Below are positions 26,731 to 31,908 of a stretch of DNA of 64,000 nt, one piece after another. The notes beneath the pieces are model-generated. The model made no database searches. It was not told where the DNA came from and worked only from the letters and a program-made list of their open reading frames with translations. Positions within the stretch are counted from its first letter, which is position 1; each line of letters opens with the position of its first letter. The translations under genes and the position numbers were made by a program. Source of the stretch: Niveispirillum lacus (GTDB taxonomy: Bacteria > Pseudomonadota > Alphaproteobacteria > Azospirillales > Azospirillaceae). The stretch is from NCBI RefSeq assembly GCF_002251795.1, contig NZ_NOXU01000031.1:186001-250000 (forward strand). Reading direction: 5' to 3'.

Positions 26731-26746
26731 CTGACATCGTTGTCAG
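26731..26746. promoter_or_regulatory. LacI-type operator-like palindrome 1
   Basis: CTGACATCGTTGTCAG lies 76 bases upstream of the GH3 start codon. It fits TGACAnCGnTGTCA with a central CG, the shape of LacI-family operators. A further inverted pair, TGTCA/TGACA (26741-26757), overlaps it. Confidence 0.6.
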
Positions 26747-26853
26747 ATGAAATGACATCAACCTCACGGGCTGTCAACGCCCAACTCGTAGAATTTTTCG
26801 GATTGCCTGACCATTGCCGGCGCGGAAGCCCGCAAAAGGATGGACACCGAATA

Positions 26854-26867
26854 TGTCAACGCTGTCA
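26854..26867. promoter_or_regulatory. LacI-type operator-like palindrome 2
   Basis: TGTCAACGCTGTCA, read on the minus strand as TGACAGCGTTGACA, matches the same pattern with one half-site imperfect. It lies in the middle of the divergent region. Confidence 0.45.
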
Positions 26868-26996
26868 GTGCTGCTGTCCCATGGGCATCCGGAAGGTCGG
26901 ATCGCCCTGGAACGGGTTACCGCTACCACAAAACCGCCATCGTGTGCAAAGCGTTAGCGGGAAGGTGGGGTGCAGGCATGCCGAATTTTGTAAAAT

Positions 26997-27018
26997 CAAT
27001 TGGCAGCGATGTCAATTG
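26997..27018. promoter_or_regulatory. LacI-type operator-like palindrome 3
   Basis: The 22-base near-palindrome at 26997-27018 has perfect CAATTG ends and the core TGGCAGCGATGTCA. That is one mismatch from TGACAnCGnTGTCA; 18 of 22 positions are symmetrical. Confidence 0.5.
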
Positions 27019-27118
27019 CGGTTCGGCGCCGTAGAACGAATGATAAATTTGCTGCAACAGCGAAAAAATGGCGGAATGCAGCGGTATTCAGTGAGCCGCC
27101 ATTGTGGTGGTTAAATCA

Positions 27119-27132
27119 TGACAGCGTTATCA
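27119..27132. promoter_or_regulatory. LacI-type operator-like palindrome 4
   Basis: TGACAGCGTTATCA fits TGACAnCGTTnTCA. Its centre is 22 bases, about two helical turns, from palindrome 5, so two dimers could bind the same face of the DNA about 190 bases upstream of the TonB receptor gene. Confidence 0.5.
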
Positions 27133-27138
27133 AATGCT

Positions 27139-27156
27139 ATTGACTGCGCTGTCAAT
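27139..27156. promoter_or_regulatory. LacI-type operator-like palindrome 5
   Basis: ATTGACTGCGCTGTCAAT has perfect ATTGAC/GTCAAT arms around GCGC. Together with palindromes 1-4 it makes five related sites in about 430 bases. No LacI-family gene is in the window, so the regulator would be encoded elsewhere. Confidence 0.5.
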
Positions 27157-30347: not shown

Positions 30348-30408
30348 AGAAATATGCTCAAAGAATAAGGCGCCAAGAATGGCAGCCATTGCGGGAGGAA
30401 CACGGGTC

Positions 30409-31908
30409 ATGGCGGGCAATCTTCCGGGCAGTATCCTGATTGTCGGGGGGGGAACGGCCGGGTGGATGGCCGCGGCCGCGCTGGCCCGTGCTGTCGGGCG
30501 GCATACCCGTATCCAACTGGTGGAAAGCAGTGCCATCGGCACTGTCGGGGTTGGGGAGGCGACGATCCCCGCCATTCGCGGCTTTAACCATATGCTGGGC
30601 CTGGATGAAGCAGATTTCCTGCGCTTCACCCAGGGGACCTATAAGCTGGGCATCGAGTTTCGTGACTGGACCCGGCTGAACCATTCCTATTTCCATCCGT
30701 TCGGGGTGCATGGCGCCAGTCTGGACGCCAATTACACGCACCAGTACTGGCTGCGCCTGAATGCCATGGGCGAGGGCGGTCGGTTGGAGGATTATTCGCT
30801 CTGCACCATCATGGCAGAGCAGGGCCGCTATATGGCGCCCGTCACGGATCCGCGTAACATCATGTCGGTGGTCGGGTCGGCCTATCATTTCGATGCCAGC
30901 CTTTATGCCGATTATCTGCGCCGCTATGCCGAACGGCTGGGCGTTGTCCGGCTGGACCGCAAGGTGGTGGATGTGGCCCTGCGCGGGGAGGACGGGTTTG
31001 TTGAGGCGGTGATCTGTGAGGGGGGAGAGCGGCTGGCCGCTGATTTCTTCATCGATTGCACCGGGTTCACCGGCCTGTTGATCGAAAAGGCACTGAAGGC
31101 CGGATATGAGGACTGGACGCACTGGCTGCCCTGCGACCGGGCCTGGGCCGTGCCATCTTCAGGCGATGGGCGCATCACGCCCTTCACCCGCTCCACCGCG
31201 CGTGAGGCCGGGTGGCAATGGCGCATTCCCCTGCGCCACCGGGTGGGCAATGGCCATGTGTTCAGCAGTGCCCATGTCAGCGAGGAACGGGCACGTGAGG
31301 TGCTGCTGGCCAATCTGGACGGGCAGCCGCTGGCCGACCCGAAGCTGCTGCGCTTTGTTACCGGGCGGCGCAAACAGGCCTGGGTGAAGAACTGCCTGTC
31401 GCTGGGGCTGGCGTCCGGGTTCCTGGAGCCGCTGGAAAGCACGTCGATCCATCTGATCCAGACGGGCATCACCAAACTGCTGGATTTTTTCCCCGGACGG
31501 CAGATCGACGGGGCGGAGGTGCGCGAATATAACGCCCTGGCGCAAGGGGAGTTCGAGGCGGTGCGGGACTTCCTGATCCTGCATTATCATGTCACGGAAC
31601 GGTCCGACAGCAGCTTCTGGAACCATTGCCGGACCATGGACATCCCCGACAGCCTGAAAAGCCGGATCGAGCTTTTCCGCCGGCGGGGGCGGGTATCGAC
31701 ACGGGCCCGCGCCCTGTTCACCGATACAAGCTGGATTGCGGTGATGATCGGGCAGGGGATCATGCCGGAAACCTATGATCCGCTGGTCGATCTGCACCCG
31801 GTGGCGGCGGTGCGGGAGCGGATGGGGACCATGCGGGCCCGCATCCGGCAGGCGGCAGACGCCATGCCGACGCATGAGGCGTTCCTGGGCAAGCAGGCGG
31901 CGGCGTGA
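30409..31908 (+). CDS. Tryptophan-halogenase-like flavoprotein
   Basis: The protein of about 499 residues has the FAD loop [15 protein letters not shown] and the conserved [12 protein letters not shown] lysine in [11 protein letters not shown] sits at the position of the halogenase catalytic Lys, and the halogenase signature WxWxIP is present (GWQWRIPL). [13 protein letters not shown] and [20 protein letters not shown] are family landmarks. The reduced flavin partner is not encoded here. Members next to TonB receptors are frequent in Caulobacter- and sphingomonad-like genomes; their natural substrates are largely unknown. I prefer ATG 30409 (GGGAGGA upstream); ATG 30379 would add 10 residues. 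Confidence 0.88.

Follow-up and report, generated by a model that had tools for sequence, protein, structure and literature searches.

Five predicted operators of a LacI-family sugar repressor between divergent β-glucosidase and TonB receptor genes in Niveispirillum lacus

Introduction

In Niveispirillum lacus, the genes for a GH3 β-glucosidase and a TonB-dependent receptor are transcribed away from each other, and the region between their start codons carries a series of similar palindromes. Which regulator would recognize these palindromes, and whether it would act on one gene or on both, is the question raised by this locus. The original prediction for the window (the whole 64-kb stretch of DNA that was analysed) proposed that five LacI-type palindromes bring about joint, looped repression of a glucan-scavenging locus by a regulator encoded outside the window. 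The five sites, O1 to O5 (Table 1), are very probably operators of a BglR/GluR-type LacI-family sugar repressor, the candidate genes for which lie elsewhere in the same genome.

The divergent locus and its predicted substrate

Pfam matches bear out the divergent β-glucosidase and TonB receptor genes. The best solved relative of the GH3 enzyme is the exo-1,3/1,4-beta-glucanase 3usz (803 bits, residues 47-846), which supports the proposed role in glucan scavenging. TIGR01782 (546 bits against a cut-off of 310) assigns the receptor to the TonB-Xanth-Caul subfamily. Next to it comes a tryptophan-halogenase-family gene, the probable second gene of a receptor operon. The same receptor-halogenase order is found in Caulobacter and Asticcacaulis. 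As predicted from sequence, the set of GH3, receptor and halogenase genes fits β-glucan scavenging.

Genes of the tryptophan-halogenase family recur 3′ of sugar TonB receptors (window 30379-31908, L192:4647-7805, L059:8932-10437). A literature search on halogenase-TonB sugar loci returned nothing useful.

Table 1. Predicted operators and promoter element, flanking genes and candidate regulator genes. Positions are those of the window, except for the two LacI genes, which lie elsewhere in the genome.
Feature	Position	Strand	Description
O1, TGACATCGTTGTCA	26732-26745		0 mismatches to TGACAnCGnTGTCA; 74 bp upstream of GH3 start codon
O2, TGTCAACGCTGTCA	26854-26867		1 mismatch to TGACAnCGnTGTCA
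O3, TGGCAGCGATGTCA	27001-27014		1 mismatch to TGACAnCGnTGTCA; within longer palindrome CAATTGgCAgCGaTGtCAATTG
O4, TGACAGCGTTATCA	27119-27132		1 mismatch to TGACAnCGnTGTCA
O5, TGACTGCGCTGTCA	27141-27154		1 mismatch to TGACAnCGnTGTCA
Probable GH3 -35 hexamer, TTGACA	26772-26777	-	Kept in 8/8 Niveispirillum loci, 31-32 bp from O1
GH3 beta-glucosidase / exo-1,3/1,4-beta-glucanase, 853 aa	24097-26658	-	Pfam GH3 N, GH3 C, Exop_C
TonB-dependent receptor, 991 aa	27322-30297	+	Pfam plug and barrel
Tryptophan-halogenase-family flavoprotein, 509 aa	30379-31908	+	PF04820, 631 bits
LacI-A	C22:280069		3′ of GluP-type permease gene, 5′ of glucokinase gene, divergent from GPH symporter
LacI-B	C25:151478		Near another divergent GH3/TonB pair, which has three boxes

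Five sites and their genomic distribution

Sites were sought by pattern scans of the window and the genome, with mismatches counted against TGACAnCGnTGTCA. A first, looser pattern had pooled nCGn-centred with CCGG-centred sites, and the latter were removed. The CCGG-centre sites (TGACACCGGTGTCA type; L041:8533 and 8567, L036:3024, L043:4009, L028:2971 and 6667) precede other genes for TonB receptors and glycoside hydrolases and are probably the operator of another LacI, for example that encoded at C22:24265 (helix SKKTVSRV).

All five predicted sites are present between the divergent starts with at most one mismatch each, two of them 2-4 bases from the positions first given (27001 and 27141 instead of 26997 and 27139). 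Each is an even palindrome with a central CG, which supports their designation as predicted LacI-type operators. At zero or one mismatch, the pattern scan found no further site in the 64-kb window; with up to three mismatches, it found 50 sites, against 26.6 (sd 4.8) in shuffles. Across the 4.97-Mb genome, the same limit of one mismatch gives 36 sites, compared with 7 for a reversed-pattern control. This genome-wide scan, suggested along with the original prediction, thus revealed a strong concentration at the locus: five of the 36 sites are packed into about 424 bp, a Poisson chance of ~2e-15 with all 36 taken as background. A literature search for the exact box returned artificial cre sites only.

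Short degenerate palindromes do arise at random, and the window contains 45 further weaker matches, so that a functionless cluster in AT-richer intergenic DNA might be imagined. The density of the sites and their conservation among relatives make the odds of such an accident negligible, and a chance cluster was rejected. O1 to O5 are letter-identical in five Niveispirillum sequences, each from a different species (the window, L045, L046, L049 and L051), with 70/70 site columns invariant versus 225/549 (41%) of the other intergenic columns (Fisher p 2e-25). Three more distant Niveispirillum loci (L047, L048 and L050) have two sites, one by each gene and 251-270 bp apart. The equivalent of O1 stands beside the GH3 start in all three, and O3 aligns with the receptor-side site of these two-site species. 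Boxes also lie 110-370 bp upstream of the receptor orthologues in these three loci, in Caulobacter and in Asticcacaulis, the orthologues of the latter two genera (47-55% identity) having one or two boxes each. Joint repression of the two divergent genes is a well-supported prediction.

Promoters, operator spacing and looping

A consensus promoter scan of the region found no textbook promoter and no good -10 box for GH3, so the -35 role of the conserved TTGACA is assigned provisionally. Given the constant distance of this hexamer before O1, O1 would cover the GH3 transcript start. A site over the transcription start is the classical position for a repressor. On the other side, O5 overlaps a TTGACT that could, from its sequence, be the -35 box of the receptor gene. 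O4 and O5 are located 168-203 bp before the receptor start codon, and LacI-family sites usually lie 30-140 bp before the start codon (PMC4052901). With no textbook promoter found, the geometry of receptor-side repression is a guess.

O4 and O5 were described as about two helical turns apart, and their 22-bp distance (~2.1 turns) agrees with this. It is the same in all five Niveispirillum sequences, as is, to within one base pair, the distance from O5 to the receptor start (180-181 bp). A box pair of 21-22 bp recurs at five further loci. In a survey of LacI-family regulons, 22 bp is among the peaks of site distance and was read as cooperative binding by two dimers (PMC4052901); the side-by-side O4/O5 pair suggests the same arrangement here.

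The remaining spacings in the five sequences are 121-122, 147-148, and 118-119 or 129 bp. Their near-constancy would suit a loop of about 390-410 bp that joins a repressor at O1 to one at O4/O5 and keeps both promoters locked, and so would the retention of one site per end in the two-site species. The O3-O4 gap (window 27014-27119; L045, L046, L049, L051) differs by 10-11 bp, about one turn, between two lineages. Such a length change would preserve helical phase, which also speaks for looping; it is nonetheless a single event, one split between two lineages, and suggestive at most. Against looping, the gaps correspond to ~11.6, 14.0 and 11.3 turns and are therefore not all whole helical turns. 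Moreover, E. coli LacI requires a leucine-heptad tail to form tetramers, and no such tetramerisation helix was found at the C-termini of the two candidate regulators, LacI-A ending in IVRGSTGPAPGAPGAALRTKRSA and LacI-B in VIRRSTAPPARR. GalR-like contacts between dimers with a helper protein are a possible alternative route. The looped form of repression originally proposed is thus not sustained as a prediction; given the missing tails and the imperfect phasing, a loop is a possibility, and an unlikely one.

Candidate regulators

Nine LacI-family genes were found in the genome, and two of them, both outside the window as anticipated for the regulator, are good candidates. The cluster of LacI-A has sites at both ends of the GPH symporter gene, one of which (L026:2611) stands between this gene and the GluP-LacI-glk run; further sites occur at L032 and L025. 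As in BglR-type regulons, the box is common to GPH symporter, glucose permease, glucokinase, LacI, TonB receptor and β-glucosidase genes. LacI-B is itself preceded, ~100 bp from its start, by a 2-mismatch site, TGACATCGTTATCC.

LacI-A and LacI-B are paralogues that share the recognition helix SIKTVSRV, while other LacI proteins of the genome carry STKTV, SKKTV or SSMTV. SIKTVSRV is also found in four sister-genus and eight Caulobacter LacI proteins, all encoded next to an orthologue of the receptor. In the four sister-genus genomes, the LacI gene lies directly 3′ of the receptor orthologue, and its product clusters with LacI-B (SH-aLRT 98). In two other genomes (G004 and G048), a LacI-A relative is accompanied by a GH3 orthologue and a GPH symporter, and the boxes there include 21-22 bp pairs.

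Of 11 Niveispirillum genomes, 9 have the receptor along with LacI-A and LacI-B, and the other two lack both the receptor and LacI-B. Family genomes with LacI-A/B-type genes contain 3.0 sites per Mb versus 1.1 in those without, a difference whose p value of 2e-5 is only indicative, since related genomes are not independent. One Niveispirillum genome that lacks both LacI-A and LacI-B (G008) nevertheless contains 12 one-mismatch sites; some of the excess seen genome-wide is thus due to background or to other regulators. Neither the linked sites, which overlap in sequence, nor the phyletic pattern, in which they always go together, discriminates between the two paralogues; judged by sequence, the regulator is most likely LacI-B, LacI-A or both.

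It is possible, with a probability well short of even, that the sites are bound by another paralogue, such as LacI-D (C22:592697), or by several whose specificities overlap, in which case the locus would integrate different sugar signals. GGACAACGTTGTCA directly precedes the LacI-D gene, and the G006 orthologue of LacI-D has AGACAACGTTGTCA at the same position. The box TGnnAnCGnTnnCA is a generic LacI-family skeleton, of which the CcpA cre TGWNANCGNTNWCA is an example (PMC10992428), and a recognition helix common to LacI-A and LacI-B likewise leaves room for shared use. Physical linkage to GH3 or receptor orthologues is seen, however, only for LacI genes of the SIKTVSRV type, which favours LacI-A and LacI-B.

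Comparison with known regulons

The original prediction drew a parallel with sugar-uptake operators of Xanthomonas-like bacteria. N. lacus is itself not Xanthomonas-like but a member of Azospirillaceae, and the closest documented counterparts are BglR and GluR of Caulobacterales and BglR of Shewanella. In Caulobacterales, the LacI-family regulators BglR1-3 and GluR (RegPrecise; Ravcheev et al. 2014, PMC4052901) recognize a 20-bp even palindrome with a central CG and control β-glucoside and glucose genes, so that the likeness extends to palindrome form, genes and position; the GluR paralogues BglR1-3 are assigned to β-glucosides (PMC4052901). The orthologous Caulobacter locus (L059) has the order pgl-edd-glk-LacI-receptor-halogenase-GH3-pyruvate kinase; boxes precede the LacI, receptor and GH3 genes. 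This corresponds to the published position of GluR, between pgl-edd-glk and pyruvate kinase, and to its targets (PMC4052901). L059 thus shows the GluR arrangement, in which the LacI gene directly follows zwf-pgl-edd-glk and has this cluster and pykA among its targets. LacI-A of N. lacus itself adjoins a glucokinase gene. Unlike GluR of Caulobacterales, the Niveispirillum regulator is not encoded beside the GH3/receptor pair, and five sites share one divergent region.

Shewanella BglR (bglA-bglT-bglR, glcP-bglA, omp; Rodionov et al. 2010, PMC2996990) is associated with LacI, a GPH β-glucoside symporter, a glucose permease and a glucokinase, which is the gene set of the LacI-A cluster, and, again as here, with a secreted or periplasmic β-glucosidase and a TonB receptor (PMC2996990). 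The glucokinase is of the ROK type in Shewanella versus PF02685 here, the genes in N. lacus are spread over several contigs, and a halogenase-family gene adjoins the receptor. SuxR/SucR of the sucrose CUT loci of Xanthomonas and Caulobacter (PMC1790865, PMC11897816) resembles the present case in being a LacI repressor of a sugar TonB receptor, but the substrate is sucrose and it is encoded within its cluster.

The NagR regulon of gammaproteobacteria and Xanthomonas also includes TonB receptors among its targets (PMC5343134), and the same box is found in Colwellia. There, L080:2582-14658 encodes LacI, phosphoglucose isomerase, a TonB receptor, Cupin_8, GH20 and a BadF-type kinase, with the exact box TGACAGCGCTGTCA. 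This locus had been considered as a distant GH3 parallel and was rejected as a GlcNAc locus with GH20. Its use of the box implies that this operator type is shared across bacterial classes and between loci for different sugars, and that the sugar cannot be read from the motif.

A NagR-type LacI acting on a locus for GlcNAc or chitin oligomers, in place of glucans, must therefore be weighed. The Colwellia GlcNAc/chitin locus combines the same recognition helix with the receptor, GH20 and kinase genes and the same box, which occurs there as a 21-bp pair too, and Xanthomonas NagR, also a LacI-family protein, controls a GlcNAc kinase and TonB receptors (PMC5343134). On the other hand, the GH3 enzyme of N. 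lacus matches exo-beta-glucanases rather than hexosaminidases, its TonB receptor and that of Colwellia are only 31-34% identical, and the LacI-A cluster has a glucokinase gene and no nag genes. Among the genes examined near the locus and near LacI-A, which encode GH3, the TonB receptor, the halogenase-family protein, GPH and GluP transporters and glucokinase, the amino-sugar genes typical of NagR regulons (nagA, nagB, nagK, GH20) were absent. A GlcNAc or chitin function is accordingly very improbable, and β-glucan remains the predicted substrate.

Further sites in the genome

Two additional boxes, TGATAGCGCTGTCA and TGATAGCGTTGTCA (L030:2839 and L040:3203), lie just before a PF06439 gene (3-keto-disaccharide hydrolase) and a PF01261 gene (xylose-isomerase-like TIM barrel protein), which hints at a place for 3-keto-glucoside breakdown in this regulon. 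Beside the LacI-A cluster, L188:11165-14904 encodes a glucodextranase/GH15 and a 395-aa protein that matches no Pfam family, and a site at L026:1049 lies upstream. Alpha-glucan genes may also be included in the regulon.

Proposed mechanism and implications

In the mechanism proposed from these sites, repressor dimers would occupy O1, over the likely GH3 transcript start, and O3-O5, upstream of the receptor and halogenase genes, when neither β-glucoside nor glucose is available, and transcription in both directions would be off. The two dimers on O4 and O5, which lie on the same face of the helix, would probably bind cooperatively. Upon entry of β-glucan oligomers, or of glucose released from them, into the cell, this effector would free the repressor, and the exo-glucanase and the outer-membrane uptake system would be produced together. 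Tentatively, the locus can be pictured as a five-operator divergent switch, in which a dimeric LacI repressor exerts graded or cooperative control of both promoters and which evolved, inside a single genus, from an ancestor with two sites.

In the LacI survey, 116 operons are noted as having three adjacent sites and 5 as having four (PMC4052901). Compared with this maximum, five conserved sites are unusual without representing a new principle. The locus otherwise appears largely ordinary, a known type of LacI regulon whose novelty is the presence of five sites in one divergent region.

These results place the Niveispirillum β-glucan uptake locus in a predicted LacI regulon and name two candidate regulators. 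They also widen the range of the BglR/GluR operator type, described in Caulobacterales, to include Azospirillaceae. The series from two to five sites within one genus would offer a natural test object for the role of extra operators.
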